DNA of 64,000 bases from Mycolicibacterium baixiangningiae. GTDB lineage: Bacteria; Actinomycetota; Actinomycetes; Mycobacteriales; Mycobacteriaceae. Shown piece by piece: positions 15,771-40,096 of the stretch. The position numbers and the translations under genes are program-made. The notes beneath the pieces are model-generated. The model was not told where the DNA came from, did no database searches, and worked only from the letters and a program-made list of their open reading frames with translations. The DNA lies in assembly GCF_016313185.1 (NCBI RefSeq), contig NZ_CP066218.1, positions 5,270,001 to 5,334,000 on the forward strand, given 5' to 3'. Within the stretch, counting starts at the first letter, position 1. Each line of letters begins with the position of its first letter.

Positions 15771-16550
15771 TCACATGCGCAGGTAGTCCAGCTGGGCTTG
15801 GACGCTCCATTCGGCGGCGTCCCACAGTTTCTCGTCGACGTCGGTGTAGACGTGCTCGACGACCTGACGCGCCGACGCCTCTTCACCCAGTTCCCGTAAC
15901 GCCGCGCGCACCTGGTCGAGCCGCTCCTCGCGGTGCGACAGGTACATCGCCGTGACGGCCTCGAGGTCACCGAGGTCCGGCCCGTGGCCCGGTAGCACCG
16001 TCCGCCGGCCCAGCCCCTGCAGGCGGTGCAGCGACTCGAGATAGTCCCGCAGGCTGCCGTCCTCGCTGTCGATCACAGTGGTGCCCCGGCCCAGCACGGT
16101 GTCGGCGGTCAGCACCGCGTCGTCGAGAACGAACGACACCGAGTCGGCGGTATGCCCCGGCGTGGCCATCACGCTGATCCGCACACCCGCCGCCTCGATC
16201 ACCTCGCCGTCGGTCAGCGGGCCACCGAGACCGCGAAGGAACCCGCTGCCGACCGACCGGACGACCGCGCCGGTGCGATCGACGATCTTGTCGATGCCGC
16301 CGGTGTGGTCTTCGTGTTTGTGGCTGATCAGCACCAGCGCGATGCGGCCGAGTTCGGCGACCTTGGCGATGTGTTCGTCGTCGTCGGGCCCGGGATCGAC
16401 GATCACCAGTTCGTCGCTGCCCGGTCCGCGCAGCACCCAGGTGTTCGTACCGTCGAGCGTCATCAGCCCCGGGTTGTTGCACAGCAGCACCGAGGCGGTC
16501 TCGGTCACCGGGCGTAACAGCCCGTATGCCGGATGCTCGGGTGCGCTCAC
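15771..16550 (-). CDS. MBL-fold hydrolase (LACTB2-like, Rv3677c type)
   Basis: 259 residues. Metal-binding motif SHKHEDHTGG (HxHxDH), second-shell His in ATPGHTADS, Asp in LTADTVLG and His in LPGHGPDLG. The C-terminal ~65 residues form the small helical domain of LACTB2/glyoxalase-II-like enzymes (EEASARQVVEHVY). GTG start at 16550, preceded by three tandem 26-bp repeats that separate it from the RidA gene. The likely reaction is thioester or RNA-phosphodiester hydrolysis, but the substrate is not evident. Confidence 0.88.
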   Translation of the reverse strand: MSAPEHPAYGLLRPVTETASVLLCNNPGLMTLDGTNTWVLRGPGSDELVIVDPGPDDDEHIAKVAELGRIALVLISHKHEDHTGGIDKIVDRTGAVVRSVGSGFLRGLGGPLTDGEVIEAAGVRISVMATPGHTADSVSFVLDDAVLTADTVLGRGTTVIDSEDGSLRDYLESLHRLQGLGRRTVLPGHGPDLGDLEAVTAMYLSHREERLDQVRAALRELGEEASARQVVEHVYTDVDEKLWDAAEWSVQAQLDYLRM

Positions 16551-16554
16551 CTGG

Positions 16555-16636
16555 CTACGCGACCTCTGCCGATTCGTCGCTCACGCGACCTCTGCCGATT
16601 CGTCGCTCACGCGACCTCTGCCGATTCGTCGCTCAC
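16555..16636 (-). repeat. Three 26-bp tandem repeats forming chained 9-codon minicistrons
   Basis: Exact copies at 16559-16584, 16585-16610 and 16611-16636. On the minus strand each copy begins GTGAGCGACGAATCGGCAGA and reads VSDESAEVA followed by a stop. The first GTG overlaps the RidA stop (GTGA). The first two minicistron stops overlap the next GTG in the same 4-bp way. The third ends in TAG, and the MBL GTG starts 4 nt later. The 26-bp period (3n-1) is what keeps the stop-start overlap in register. Confidence 0.9.
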
Positions 16637-17127
16637 GCGACCTCGACGATCAGCTCGACTTCCACCGGTGCGTTACGCGGCAGCTCCGCCACCCCGACGG
16701 CGGACCGGGCGTGCGCGCCTGCGTCGCCGAACACCTCACCGAACAGCTCCGATGCGCCGTTGATAACGCCGGGCTGACCGTCGAAGCCGGGCGCCGAGGC
16801 GACGAACCCGACGACCTTGACCACCCGGGTGACCGCGTCGATGCCGACGAGTGCGTTCACCGCGGCAAGCGCGTTGAGGCCGCACAGCCGCGCGAGGTCC
16901 TTGGCGTCCTCGGCGGTGACCTCGGCGCCGACCTTTCCGGTCCGGGTCAGCTCACCGGAGACGATCGGCAGCTGACCGGAGGTGTAGACCAGGTTCCCGG
17001 TCCGCACGGCCGGGATGTATGCCGCCAGCGGCGCCACGACCTCGGGCAGCTCGATCCCGAGGTCGGCCAGCCTGCCTGACCACTGCGATTTCCCCGGGTC
17101 GCTGCGCTCCTGCCCGCCGGCGCTCAC
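16633..17127 (-). CDS. RidA/YjgF-family protein (Rv3678c type)
   Basis: 164 residues. The RidA fold is indicated by VRTGNLVYTSGQLP near residue 45 and the C-terminal RSAVGVAELPRNAPVEVE, where the conserved Arg of the imine-binding site is expected (HARSAVGV). Likely a reactive enamine/imine deaminase or a relative. The GTG start overlaps the DUF4177 stop (GTGA), and its own stop overlaps the first minicistron of the downstream repeat array. Operon DUF4177-RidA-MBL. Confidence 0.85.
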   Translation of the reverse strand: MSAGGQERSDPGKSQWSGRLADLGIELPEVVAPLAAYIPAVRTGNLVYTSGQLPIVSGELTRTGKVGAEVTAEDAKDLARLCGLNALAAVNALVGIDAVTRVVKVVGFVASAPGFDGQPGVINGASELFGEVFGDAGAHARSAVGVAELPRNAPVEVELIVEVA

Positions 17128-17285
17128 TTCGGGCGCTTCAGGTACGCGACGTGCTGTTCACCGGTCGGCCCGGGCAGCACCGACACCAACTCCCAGCCGT
17201 CGGCGCCCCACTGGTCGAGGATCTGTTTGGTGGCATGCGTCAGCAACGGCACGGTGGCGTACTCCCACTGGGTTGGTTCGCTCAT
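17124..17285 (-). CDS. DUF4177 small protein (Rv3678A type)
   Basis: 53 residues, MSEPTQWEYATVPLLTHATK at the start and GWELVSVLPGPTGEQHVAYL near the end. The W-E-Y...GWELVSV pattern is the DUF4177 signature. Too short for many gene finders but conserved beside the RidA gene in mycobacteria. The promoter must lie in the 48-bp space shared with the divergent arsA1 gene. Function unknown. Confidence 0.85.
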   Translation of the reverse strand: MSEPTQWEYATVPLLTHATKQILDQWGADGWELVSVLPGPTGEQHVAYLKRPK

Positions 17286-17321
17286 GAGGCTGAGCTTATC
17301 GGGCGCCGCGCGGCGCTTGGC

Positions 17322-17327
17322 TAGCAT
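17322..17327 (+). promoter_or_regulatory. -10 box, leaderless start of first Get3/ArsA-like gene
   Basis: TAGCAT ends 6 nt before the GTG at 17334. Confidence 0.55.
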
Positions 17328-17333
17328 GCAGAG

Positions 17334-18353
17334 GTGGCAACAACTACCAATGGCGGTAGAGCCGTCGGCTGGCCGTCGCGCCTGACGAAGGTGAAACTGC
17401 ACTTCGTCACCGGCAAGGGCGGTACGGGCAAGTCGACGATCGCCGCGGCGCTCGCCCTGGCGCTCGCCGCCGGGGGCCGCAAGGTGTTGCTCGTCGAAGT
17501 CGAAGGGCGCCAGGGCATCGCTCAGCTCTTCGACGTGCCACCACTGCCCTACAAAGAGGTGAAGATCGCCACCGCGGACGGCGGCGGGCAGGTCAACGCG
17601 CTGGCGGTCGACACCGAGGCGGCGTTCCTGGAATACCTCGACATGTTCTACAACCTCGGCCTGGCCGGTCGGGCGATGCGCCGGATCGGCGCGGTGGAGT
17701 TCGCGACGACGATCGCGCCCGGGCTGCGTGACGTGCTGCTCACCGGGAAGATCCGCGAGGTCGTCACGCGGGCGGAGAAGGGTAAGCAGCCGGTGTACGA
17801 CGCCGTGGTTGTCGACTCTCCACCCACCGGGCGGATCGCGCGGTTCCTGGACGTGACCAAGGCGGTGTCCGATCTGGCCAAGGGCGGTCCGGTGCACTCG
17901 CAGGCCGAGAGCGTGGTGAAGGTGCTGCACTCCGACATCACGGCGATCCATCTGGTGACCCTGCTCGAGGCGCTGCCGATGCAGGAGACGCTGGAAGCCA
18001 TCGACGAGCTCAGGGCACTCGGCCTGCCCATCGGCAGTGTCATCGTCAACCGCAACATCCCGGCGTACCTGTCGCCGGACGATCAGGCCAAGGCCGCCGA
18101 GGGCGACATCGACGCCGACGCCATCCGCGCGGACCTGGCAGCGGTGGGAATCGAGTTGAGCGACAACGACTTCGCCGGGCTGCTGACCGAGACGATCCAA
18201 CATGCCACCCGCATCGCGGCGCGATCCGAAACCGCCGAACAACTCGAGCGTCTCGACGTGCCGCGGCTCGAATTGCCTTCCCTGCCCGAAGGTGTCGACC
18301 TCGGCAGCCTCTATGAACTGGCCGAAGTGCTCGCCCATCAAGGCGTGCGATGA
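17334..18353 (+). CDS. Get3/ArsA-like ATPase, subunit A (Rv3679 type)
   Basis: 339 residues. P-loop VTGKGGTGKSTIAAALAL with the deviant Walker A (GKGGTGKS) of the Get3/ArsA/MinD class, a VVVDSPPTGRIARFLD switch region and a VIVNRN A-loop region. No arsenite-binding Cys cluster, so an arsenite pump role is unlikely. The M. tuberculosis pair Rv3679-Rv3680 has been described as a bacterial Get3-like complex (BagA/BagB) affecting glycerol tolerance and the envelope. The leaderless GTG is supported by TAGCAT. The stop overlaps a chain of minicistrons leading into the partner gene. Confidence 0.92.
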   Translation: MATTTNGGRAVGWPSRLTKVKLHFVTGKGGTGKSTIAAALALALAAGGRKVLLVEVEGRQGIAQLFDVPPLPYKEVKIATADGGGQVNALAVDTEAAFLEYLDMFYNLGLAGRAMRRIGAVEFATTIAPGLRDVLLTGKIREVVTRAEKGKQPVYDAVVVDSPPTGRIARFLDVTKAVSDLAKGGPVHSQAESVVKVLHSDITAIHLVTLLEALPMQETLEAIDELRALGLPIGSVIVNRNIPAYLSPDDQAKAAEGDIDADAIRADLAAVGIELSDNDFAGLLTETIQHATRIAARSETAEQLERLDVPRLELPSLPEGVDLGSLYELAEVLAHQGVR

Positions 18354-18458
18354 ACGAAGAGAAGAGCACCATGGGGGTCCGTCGATGAACGACGAGAAGA
18401 GCACCATGGGGGTCCGTCGATGAACGAAGAGAAGAGCACCATGGAGGCCGGTCGATGA
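18350..18458 (+). repeat. Three 35-bp tandem repeats forming chained 12-codon minicistrons
   Basis: Copies at 18350-18384, 18385-18419 and 18420-18454. Each begins ATGAACGA and encodes, in order, [24 protein letters not shown] and [12 protein letters not shown], each closed by TGA. The first ATG overlaps the arsA1 stop (ATGA), each minicistron stop overlaps the next ATG by 4 bp, and the last overlaps the arsA2 ATG. Only the last copy carries a consensus GGAGG (18443-18447), 7 nt before the arsA2 start; the other copies have GGGGG there. Confidence 0.9.
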
Positions 18459-19585
18459 GTACGACACCGCCCGCCCTCGACCTGGGTGCGATCCTCCACG
18501 ACACGTCCAACCGGGTGGTGGTCTGCTGCGGCGCCGGCGGCGTCGGGAAGACGACCACCGCCGCGGCGATGGCACTGCGGGCCGCCGAATACGGCCGCAC
18601 CGTAGTGGTTTTGACGATCGACCCGGCCAAGCGTCTCGCACAGGCACTGGGCATCAAGGATCTGGGCAACACCCCGCAGCGGGTCCCGTTGGCCCCCGAG
18701 GTGACCGGTGAACTCCACGCCATGATGCTCGACATGCGCCGCACCTTCGACGAGATGGTGCTCCAGTACTCGGGCCCCGACCGCGCCGACTCCATCCTGG
18801 ACAACCAGTTCTACCAAACGGTGGCGACGTCACTCGCCGGCACGCAGGAGTACATGGCGATGGAGAAGCTGGGACAGCTTCTCGCAGAAGACAAGTGGGA
18901 CCTCATCGTGGTGGACACACCACCGTCGCGCAATGCGCTGGACTTCCTCGACGCCCCCAAACGGCTGGGCAGCTTCATGGACAGCAGACTGTGGCGGATG
19001 CTGCTGGCGCCCGGGCGGGGTATCGGCAAACTGGTGACGGGTGCGGTGGGGCTGGCCATGAAGGCCATGTCGACCATTCTTGGATCCCAAATGCTCTCTG
19101 ACGCAGCAGGTTTCGTGCAGTCTTTGGACGCGACGTTCGGCGGTTTCCGCGAGAAGGCCGACCGGACCTACGATCTACTGAAACGGCGTGGCACCCAGTT
19201 CGTGGTGGTGTCGGCGGCCGAACCCGACGCCTTGCGGGAGGCGGCGTTCTTCGTCGACCGGTTGTCCTCGGAGCGGATGCCGCTGGCCGGGCTCATCTTG
19301 AACCGGACGCACCCGACGCTGTGTTCGTTGCACGCGGACAAGGCCAGTGAGGTGGCCGAGACACTGTCGGCAGAAGACCCGGAGTCGTTGACGGCGGCGG
19401 CGCTGAGCATTCACGCGGACCGGACGCAGACCGCCAAACGTGAGGTGCGCCTGTTGTCCCGGTTCACCGGCGCCAATCCGCATGTGGCGATCGTCGGTGT
19501 GCCTTCGCTGCCGTTCGACGTGTCAGACCTCGACGCGCTGCGGGTGATCGCCGATCAGATCACCGGCGCGGCGAACGCGGCCTGA
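18455..19585 (+). CDS. Get3/ArsA-like ATPase, subunit B (Rv3680 type)
   Basis: 376 residues. P-loop [18 protein letters not shown] (GAGGVGKT), a [16 protein letters not shown] switch I region, [19 protein letters not shown] switch II, and LILNRTHPT. Retains the intradimer signature Lys of the Get3/ArsA class. Partner of the ATPase encoded immediately upstream, with which it is thought to form a heteromeric complex (BagB in M. tuberculosis work). The start ATG has GGAGG 7 nt upstream inside the last tandem repeat. Confidence 0.92.
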
Positions 19586-19609
19586 CGGTCCAGCGAGAAA
19601 GAGTGTGGC

Positions 19610-19966
19610 TCAGACCGCGCTGCGATGTTTGCGCTGAGCGGAGAAGAACTCGGCCCAGGAAACGACCTCGGGGTGCTGCTTGAGCAACGCCCGGCGCTGA
19701 CGTTCGGTCATTCCGCCCCACACACCGAATTCGACCCGGTTGTCGAGGGCGTCCGCACCGCATTCGAGAATGACCGGGCAGTGGCGACAAATGACGGCGG
19801 CCTTGCGCTGCGCGGCGCCGCGGACGAACAGCTCGTCCGGGTCGGCCTGGCGGCACCGGGCCTGGGAGACCCAGGCGATCCGTGCTTCGGCCTCTGCACC
19901 GTGAACGGGGGTCGAGGAGGGGACGGTTGTGACGGTCTTTTCCACCGCGGGCCGGATGATTGACAC
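19610..19966 (-). CDS. whiB4: WhiB4 iron-sulfur redox regulator
   Basis: 118 residues. The four [4Fe-4S] ligands are Cys38, Cys60, Cys63 and Cys69 (CRHC and C-x5-C spacing), followed by the G(V/I)WGG turn GVWGGMTERQRRALLK and a basic tail QRKHRSAV for DNA binding. Length and order next to the arsA pair identify WhiB4 (Rv3681c), in M. tuberculosis an oxygen-sensitive regulator of antioxidant genes. Convergent with arsA2 over 24 bp, with no hairpin. Confidence 0.95.
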   Translation of the reverse strand: MSIIRPAVEKTVTTVPSSTPVHGAEAEARIAWVSQARCRQADPDELFVRGAAQRKAAVICRHCPVILECGADALDNRVEFGVWGGMTERQRRALLKQHPEVVSWAEFFSAQRKHRSAV

Positions 19967-20247
19967 CAGCGATCCCTTCGTTCTGCCGCCGCAGCGACGG
20001 CGAGTCCTCCGGAGTAGAACGCTGATGCGATCTACGCCACACTGCGCCAGTTAGTGTGTCCTGGATCGCACTGTGTGTCCAAGCTAGGTGGTCAGGCCAC
20101 ATTTACGCAACACTTTGTCTCCGACTTTTTTGGCACGGCCGTGCCGTCTGATCGAGTTCATAGAGTTGAGGCGTCTCGGCGCACCGGGTTCGCGACCGCA
20201 AACTCGGCGAATCCTGCTGCTCCGGCGATGCCGTCGGGCGGCGTCGT

Positions 20248-38872: not shown

Positions 38873-40096
38873 ATGAGCAACGACGCCGGCGGGTCCGGTC
38901 ACGTCAACCCGCCGCCGCCATATGCCCCACCGGGCTACCCTCCCCCGGGCTACCAGCAGGCGTATCCGCCCCCCGGCTATCAGCAGGGCTACCCGCCGCC
39001 GGGGTATCAGCAGGGCTATCCGCCGCCCAGCTACCAACAGGGCTACCCGCCGCCCGGCTATCAACAGGGCTATCCGCCGCCCGGCTACCCACCGCAGCAG
39101 GGGTACTCGCCGGCCGGAGTCCTCAAGCCCGGCGTCATCCCGTTGCGTCCGCTGGGGCTGTCGGACATCTTCAACGGCGCGGTCAACTACATCCGCCGCA
39201 ACCCGAAGGCGACGCTGGGCCTGACCGCCATCGTGGTGGTGGCCGCCCAGTTGATCTCACTCGTCCTGCAGATCCTGGGTCCGATGATCGCCACCGGTGA
39301 CATCGACCCGACCCTCAGCGGCGAGGCACCCACAACGGGTGACGTCGTCGCGCTGTCCGGGTCCGCGCTGGCCGGGTCGATCACCACCGCGCTGGCGTCG
39401 GTGGTGCTCAGCGGCATGCTGACGGTCATCGTCGGGCGCGCGGTGTTCGGCGCGGACATCACCATCGGCGAGGCCTGGCAGCGGGTCAAGAGCAGGCTGT
39501 TGGCCCTACTCGGCTTCACCGCGCTCGAGGCGCTGGCGATCCTGGTGCTGATCGGGATCGTCGTGGTCGCCATCATCGCGGCCGAGGCTGTCGGCGGCGG
39601 CGTCGCCGCGTTCCTCGTCGGCGCCCCCCTGGTCATCGCCGCCGTCGCGCTGATCGTGTACGTCGCCACGTCGCTGCTGTTCACGCCTGCCCTGATCGTC
39701 CTGGAACGGCTCGGCGTCGTCGACGCGGCGAAACGGTCGTTCGCACTGGTGAAGAAGGACTTCTGGCGGGTGCTCGGCATCTGGATCCTGGCCGCGCTCG
39801 TGGCGGCCGTCATCGCGGGCGCGGTCGGTGTCCCGTTCAGTTTCGGCGGACAGCTGCTGGCGTCGGGGTCGGGTTCCGCAGGTGGTGCGGTGGCCGGACT
39901 CGTCCTCATCGCGGTCGGCGCGGCGGTCGGTCAGATCCTCACCGCCCCGTTCAGCGCCGGGGTCGTCGTGCTGCTCTACACCGACCGCAGGATCCGCTCG
40001 GAGGCCTTCGATCTGGTGCTGCACACCGGCGCGGCAGCGGGACCCAGCGTCGCGGCCGATTCCACCGACCACCTGTGGCTGACCCGCCACCCCTGA
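38873..40096 (+). CDS. Pro-rich membrane protein (Rv3689 type)
   Basis: 407 residues. Residues 1-80 are a repeat array of GYQQGYPPP units (about six copies), then a GYSPAGVLKPGVIPLRPL linker, then six or so membrane helices of the glycerophosphoryl-diester-phosphodiesterase-N/DUF7544-like type (LGLSDIFNGAVNYIRRNPKA is the conserved entry segment). TTGTCA (38837) and CAGGAT-type boxes may give a leaderless start. First gene of the membrane cluster extending to the RDD gene. Function unknown; the tail may self-associate. Confidence 0.82.
   Translation: MSNDAGGSGHVNPPPPYAPPGYPPPGYQQAYPPPGYQQGYPPPGYQQGYPPPSYQQGYPPPGYQQGYPPPGYPPQQGYSPAGVLKPGVIPLRPLGLSDIFNGAVNYIRRNPKATLGLTAIVVVAAQLISLVLQILGPMIATGDIDPTLSGEAPTTGDVVALSGSALAGSITTALASVVLSGMLTVIVGRAVFGADITIGEAWQRVKSRLLALLGFTALEALAILVLIGIVVVAIIAAEAVGGGVAAFLVGAPLVIAAVALIVYVATSLLFTPALIVLERLGVVDAAKRSFALVKKDFWRVLGIWILAALVAAVIAGAVGVPFSFGGQLLASGSGSAGGAVAGLVLIAVGAAVGQILTAPFSAGVVVLLYTDRRIRSEAFDLVLHTGAAAGPSVAADSTDHLWLTRHP

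Follow-up and report, generated by a model that had tools for sequence, protein, structure and literature searches.

The described elements nearest to the repeat treated here are the mycobacterial interspersed repetitive units (MIRUs), which Supply et al. 1997 are said to have described. In an excerpt of the review PMC12548453, MIRUs are described as entering at start codons, coupled at -4, and consequently as affecting expression little. For termination-reinitiation at overlapping genes, the available part of PMC6728339 places the need for a Shine-Dalgarno (SD) site anywhere from none to essential, depending on the gene pair. The names BagA and BagB denote, in an extract of PMC10597346, Rv3679 and Rv3680 together with their M. 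smegmatis homologues.

The locus compared with these systems lies in a 64,000-nucleotide stretch of the Mycolicibacterium baixiangningiae genome (contig NZ_CP066218.1, positions 5,270,001 to 5,334,000), hereafter the window. The tandem array found there between bagA and bagB is read, with a probability of roughly two in three, as a tolerated, coupling-preserving minicistron cassette with its own SD, situated at the bagA/bagB ATGA overlap and later tandem-duplicated.

The array and its flanking genes in the window

Table 1. Features discussed in the text, in window numbering.
Feature	Position	Strand	Basis or remark
bagA, ArsA/Get3-type ATPase	17334..18353	+	NCBIfam equivalog BagA, 531.7 bits against a cut-off of 400
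Tandem array, three 35-bp units, period 3n-1	18350..18454	+	Window sequence
Minicistron 1, 12 codons	18350..18388	+	Shares an ATGA with bagA; preceded by a weak SD (-3.3 kcal/mol)
Minicistron 2, 12 codons	18385..18423	+	Predicted SD before it -9.1 kcal/mol
Minicistron 3, 12 codons	18420..18458	+	Predicted SD before it -9.1 kcal/mol; stop overlaps bagB start
GGAGG SD-like site before bagB	18443..18447	+	Sequence; predicted pairing
bagB, ArsA/Get3-type ATPase	18455..19585	+	NCBIfam equivalog BagB, 628.8 bits against a cut-off of 521
MBL-fold gene	15771-16550	-	Downstream flank of the period-26 array
Second minicistron array, three GTGA-linked ORFs (MSDESAEVA), period 26	16555..16636	-	ORF and repeat calls
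Rid-family gene	16633-17127	-	Upstream flank of the period-26 array

The window sequence contains three tandem 35-bp units at 18350-18384, 18385-18419 and 18420-18454, recovered by TRF as a period-35 array from 18348 to 18458 with a score of 194. The first-pass annotation had described a 35-bp unit present three times, each copy forming a full 12-codon ORF, with ATGA overlaps at bagA/ORF1, ORF1/ORF2, ORF2/ORF3 and ORF3/bagB, and the sequence agrees on both points, the array being registered exactly on ATGA and the TGA stop of bagA forming part of the first overlap (the GTG start of bagA at 17334 is the choice of the ORF-caller). The 35-bp repeat itself is not a product of chance. Copies 1 and 2 differ at 1 base, copies 1 and 3 at 3 and copies 2 and 3 at 4, while comparison with the single copy of a relative (G002) gave 4 differences in 35 bases for copy 3 and 5 each for copies 1 and 2. 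Since copies 1 and 2 are one base apart, the array seems to have undergone its last duplication recently. Closed ORFs of this kind follow automatically when a stretch of 3n-1 bases spanning an ATGA overlap is duplicated in tandem. Elsewhere in the 6.18-Mb genome the 35-mer had no match at up to 3 mismatches, only the three array copies being recovered, and within 16000-20000 a search for structured RNA gave no hit to Rfam at E values up to 0.1.

It had also been claimed that only the last copy carries GGAGG. This holds literally, copies 1 and 2 having GGGGG (18373-18377 and 18408-18412) where copy 3 has GGAGG, but the predicted pairing is about equal before ORF2, ORF3 and bagB (-9.1, -9.1 and -9.3 kcal/mol; these energies refer to a predicted duplex with an assumed sequence of the 16S rRNA 3' end). 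The weak SD site of the array is the one before ORF1, predicted at -3.3 kcal/mol. Among the SD/start regions of the window, the inner ones have a predicted unpaired fraction of 0.26-0.30 compared with 0.54 for the first, an order reversed in one (L100) of the 7 sequences folded.

The bagA-bagB junction across Mycobacteriaceae

Junctions were assembled from 80 named loci, 29 loci of relatives, 60 further junctions (about every second remaining row among the matches listed) and the window, giving 170 rows of which 154 were distinct; the codon test used the 126 that remained once 28 of these with a BagB identity below 75% had been dropped, and the tree used the 124 that passed a cut at 80%. An insert of 13-118 nt was found in 38 of the 126 distinct Mycobacteriaceae junctions, and the remaining 88 show an overlap or a gap of less than 10 nt between the bagA stop and the bagB start. 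The array is consequently not the one-off that the first-pass annotation had named as speaking against its proposal, and, as far as these sequences go, it exemplifies a pattern that recurs at bagA-bagB. On the 124-species tree the insert/none state changes 19 times, at least 14 of these on starred (well-supported) branches, although neither these counts nor the presence of both empty and filled junctions among close relatives separates gain from loss. One side of the midpoint-rooted tree, comprising 42 rows including named species regarded as slow growers, is free of inserts, the split itself being weakly supported.

Sorted by string rules, the inserts on the tree comprise 4 of a 35-mer-like type (the window, G002, G192 and G042), 13 of a canonical 32-bp type, 6 short-core and 15 other ones, with differences in both sequence and length between clades. 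The window has three units of the 35-mer-like type and the other three genomes one each; among near relatives, G002 has one 35-bp copy, G192 one 32-bp form and G153 one canonical 32-mer of the other unit kind, L004/G095 presents an empty ATGA junction and L006/G014 likewise has no unit. The comparison of copy number between related species that had been proposed thus yields variation (0, 1, 3) rather than conservation.

Tight -4/-1 links run from bagA through to bagB in 33 of the 38 mycobacterial inserts, six non-mycobacterial rows being set aside, and in one of the 33 (L225) the link is an N-terminal extension of bagB. Read from the sequences, L011, L094, L233 and L257 have a minicistron that stops 0-1 nt short of bagB; the L096 insert lacks a link at the bagA stop, which counts against the reading as a coupling-preserving cassette. 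An unbroken path into bagB was present in 38 of 44 observed inserts against a mean of 32.7 of 44 after shuffling (p 0.01). Because shuffled inserts usually stay open as well, an open chain says little when taken alone, and the unbroken chain was rejected as a proof of selection.

The position of the SD differs between junctions with and without an insert. In 126 of 126 cases the last four residues of BagA are Gln-Gly-Val and one more, and it depends on the Gly codon whether the ATGA is preceded by an SD-like AGGAG or AGGGG. In no-insert junctions the SD of bagB lies within the end of bagA itself, the Gly codon being GGA or GGG in 84 of 88 compared with 8 of 38 insert junctions (Fisher 1.8e-17), over a background of A/G-ending Gly codons elsewhere in bagA of 29.1% and 27.3% respectively. 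Restricted to the side of the tree presumed to hold rapid growers, the counts are 44 of 46 and 8 of 38, and among 14 independent pairs the codon changes together with the insert in a mean of 8.3, in the opposite sense in 0 and not at all in 5.7 (median p 0.008). Six of the eight insert junctions retaining GGA/GGG (L015, L019, L024, L091, L218 and L257) have units of canonical or near-canonical form, compatible with a recent insertion; the no-insert junctions without GGA/GGG are L035, L046, L051 and L078. The V and Q codons near the bagA end likewise differ between the two groups, so part of the Gly codon contrast may reflect shared ancestry, a point against the cassette.

With the insert present, the SD before bagB has thus moved from the bagA end into the insert at nearly unchanged predicted strength (mean -8.81 with and -8.97 without insert, p 0.33), suggesting that bagB initiation is kept rather than tuned. 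At insert junctions the SD in the bagA end, before minicistron 1, averages -5.09 against -3.45 at random bagA positions (p 7e-6), and since these relaxed ends are still somewhat above random, the SD has on average decayed only in part. Before minicistron 1 the SD is apparently not kept; its weakness implies that translation of minicistron 1 may not matter, which again speaks against a coupling-preserving cassette, and either reinitiation there is SD-independent or it is not needed at all.

Related repeats and their reading frames

A second, 32-bp repeat with an architecture like that of the 35-mer unit, TGAGCGCTYGCGCGAAGAG, is present in 143 of 198 genus genomes and is dispersed in the genome of the window, with 31 copies at up to 1 mismatch (none for the reversed control) and 45 at 3 mismatches (6 for the control). 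With open frames standing in for genes, its copies begin on the stop codon that closes a long ORF at 19 of 23 own-genome and 19 of 28 other-genome sites, compared with 10 of 57 RTGAGCG and 237 of 1558 RTGA control sites, and at 17 of 23 and 19 of 28 sites a tightly linked ORF of 100 codons or more follows downstream. At four own-genome loci (L144, L153, L166 and L170) it sits on a gene stop codon with no tightly linked downstream ORF, so the anchor may be the stop codon rather than the start.

Tandem pairs of this repeat occur in 90 of the 198 genomes, and periods were taken from 93 arrays among the matches listed (150 pairs, from 19 of the 90 genomes). Of these listed arrays, 91 of 93 have a first period of 3n-1 or 3n, the full distribution being 32 bp in 55, 33 in 24, 30 in 10, 31 in 2, and 26 and 29 in 1 each. 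The rarity of period 31 (2 arrays) beside period 33 (24) among them is hard to explain without selection on frame. Within 1.264 Mb of the genome, five RTGA-chained arrays lie on a long-ORF stop, the bagA-bagB array included, with periods of 17, 20, 26, 26 and 35, all 3n-1; four of the five run directly into the downstream ORF at the last RTGA, the exception being the Rid-MBL array, whose third ORF is closed by a TAG 4 nt ahead of the MBL start. The earlier proposal that a 3n-1 period preserves the chain is upheld by both sets of arrays, in which frame matters. A short-core array at bagA-bagB (G025, L311) has a period of 34, that is 3n+1, which counts against the cassette interpretation, though its first ORF still meets an ATGA two units on; moreover, most of the frame statistics derive from other loci and from a repeat other than the bagA-bagB 35-mer.

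Several further junctions carry comparable units. The tail of the Rid-MBL unit copies the end of the Rid gene (GAGGTCGCGTGA), and a similar unit was seen in 1-2 copies at the same junction in L010, L014, L016 and L024. At L172 (G000:C1:2514595) a copy of TGAGCGCTTGCGCGAAGA forms a short ORF whose stop overlaps, as ATGA, the start of ftsZ, identified by Pfam Tubulin and FtsZ_C. Two 38-bp short-core minicistrons lie at L302 (G000:C1:2671777-2671832) between a HisA/HisF-type gene and hisI (phosphoribosyl-AMP cyclohydrolase), both flanks assigned by Pfam, and other genomes have 1-3 short-core copies at apparently the same junction. Short-core inserts (TGARCGMAGCGAAGAGGA) are rare, occurring in 13 of 198 genomes, and in the loci read the core sits at bagA-bagB or, judged by the flanks, at the histidine-operon junction. 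In uncorrected comparisons the 35-mer matched short-core inserts at bagA-bagB in another clade with p 0.001 for L052 (ungapped, 39 nt) and p 0.0008 for L233, and the L094, L099 and L093 inserts with p 0.017, 0.007 and 0.006; the short-core inserts of that clade are the best sequence relatives of the 35-mer.

Private arrays at G000:C1:220222 and 2011039, with periods of 20 and 17, resemble short duplications of the downstream gene's own start, and such duplication is a second possible origin of minicistrons. Target-site duplication, by which the unit tail would be a copy of the upstream gene end, was not adopted as a general mechanism: over 60 sites the paired similarity was 6.78 against 6.19 when permuted (about 1 in 20000), the excess being carried by few sites and absent from most, and the similarity between the 35-mer and the bagA end in four genomes gave p 0.06, 0.24, 0.67 and 0.27. 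Separately, a 27/54-bp tandem repeat in the window (38932-39089, GGCTATCCGCCGCC...), with a period divisible by three, is probably a proline/tyrosine-rich coding repeat.

Proposed explanation, rival readings and comparison with known systems

Under the preferred explanation, a small insert would have landed precisely on the ATGA in which the bagA stop and the bagB start overlap, its first copy arising presumably by insertion of a short repeat or by local duplication, and would afterwards have been tandem-duplicated in the lineage of the window. Each unit begins on the overlapping start codon and finishes with its own SD and the next ATGA, so that with one, two or three units alike the stop-start path stays unbroken and bagB keeps a full SD in front of it. 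Ribosomes ending bagA could step through the short frames by termination-reinitiation, be recruited at the SD in the unit tail, or both, initiation at bagB being set by the SD of the last unit, and once an insert is present the SD in the last bagA codons would no longer be needed and would decay. The minicistron frames would accordingly be translated and bagB output would stay roughly unchanged, the array being probably no volume knob for bagB.

The first-pass annotation had instead proposed that repeat number acts as a stoichiometry dial, each minicistron costing or adding reinitiating ribosomes and thereby setting the BagB:BagA ratio, with copy number under selection. Related species do differ in copy number, which 3n-1 periods permit with the chain intact, yet copy number is not conserved (3, 1, 1 and 1 in the genomes with the 35-mer-like type), the insert sequence differs between clades, ORF2, ORF3 and bagB have SDs of equal predicted strength, and a bagB SD of the same strength with and without insert looks like kept output. 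The proposal therefore gained no positive support and is unlikely. The insert could also be simply an independent ribosome-binding site for bagB, uncoupling it from bagA and making the short frames incidental, as the relaxation of bagA's own SD after insertion and the retention of that of the insert would allow; but a free leader needs neither the tight links of 33 of 38 inserts nor the 3n-1 or 3n periods of 91 of 93 listed arrays, and the less open inner SD/start regions of the window are what coupling would favour (with L100 reversed), which makes this account quite improbable.

Neutral slippage, constrained only by bagB not being broken, had been offered as the alternative to the dial. In its favour are the recent look of the last duplication, the resemblance of the two private arrays to short duplications of a downstream gene start and the frequency of open chains by chance; against it, the period bias and the SD shift show such inserts to be not without constraint, frame and SD placement looking constrained, and as a full explanation slippage is very unlikely. 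That the 12-residue peptides are functional in themselves is scarcely credible: three near-identical peptides are encoded in the window, whereas three of the four genomes with the 35-mer-like type encode one diverged copy and junction inserts differ in sequence and length between clades. A bolder extension of the coupling-preserving cassette would have rapid growers carrying several mobile or self-duplicating cassette families of 17-38 bp that land on RTGA overlaps, take over the next SD and evolvably set operon translation by 3n-1 gain or loss of copies, at bagAB, hisF-hisI, upstream of ftsZ and elsewhere; this is a speculative and rather doubtful generalisation.

Among known systems, the RTGA-coupled mycobacterial small ORFs of Shell et al. 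2015 (PMC4633059), as presented in the part of that paper at hand, resemble the bagA-bagB ORFs in the RTGA join and in the conservation of linkage but not of sequence; they start leaderless transcripts, whereas those at bagA-bagB lie within an operon and are repeated. With respect to termination-reinitiation at ATGA overlaps, the no-insert bagA-bagB junction corresponds to the standard case in an excerpt of Huber et al. 2019 (PMC6728339), with an overlap and an SD in the upstream gene end, and the window differs from the cases given there by interposed minicistrons carrying the SD. The RTGA link to the downstream gene that a coupled small ORF would need is present, and translation of the minicistrons is predicted. 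The junction is a repeated natural experiment on translational coupling, in which species with and without a minicistron differ at a synonymous, SD-making codon, so that a single gene pair lends itself to testing what the SD and what reinitiation contribute at ATGA overlaps.

The 35-mer shares with MIRUs a short repeated unit, a small ORF oriented along the operon, coupling at -4 (ATGA), occurrence in tandem and a 3n-1 length, and the array overlaps both neighbours by RTGA. It differs in size, being 35 bp (26-33 bp for the dispersed repeat) against about 40-100 bp for MIRUs in general and 77 bp as measured in the arrays given below; in sequence, comparison with the MIRU composite giving no significant match at p 0.57 (p 0.045 for the 32-bp repeat, marginal and uncorrected); and in dispersal, being confined to one site, whereas the 32-bp repeat with its 31 copies at up to 1 mismatch is dispersed as MIRUs are. 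A presumed MIRU core motif had 0 copies in the genome of the window and occurred in 73 of 198 genus genomes. MIRU-type arrays of 77 bp with RTGA ends were found at L283 (G105), L292 (G074), L293 (G191) and L294 (G015), all four genomes having 0 copies of the 32-bp repeat, and in the genomes richest in the motif (G105 21, G064 21, G148 18, G023 15, G029 13) the 32-bp repeat counts are 0, 0, 0, 1 and 0. G073 was discarded as a source of MIRU arrays, having 13 OmpR-type loci without such a repeat, and the MIRU-type units were found by motif instead. Among the open-licence papers listed, no description of a short dispersed 32-bp family was found. The 35-mer array would therefore work like a MIRU while departing from MIRUs in sequence, size and dispersal. 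The finding also suggests that MIRU-like, coupling-preserving inserts are a wider mycobacterial habit that includes a short dispersed family.
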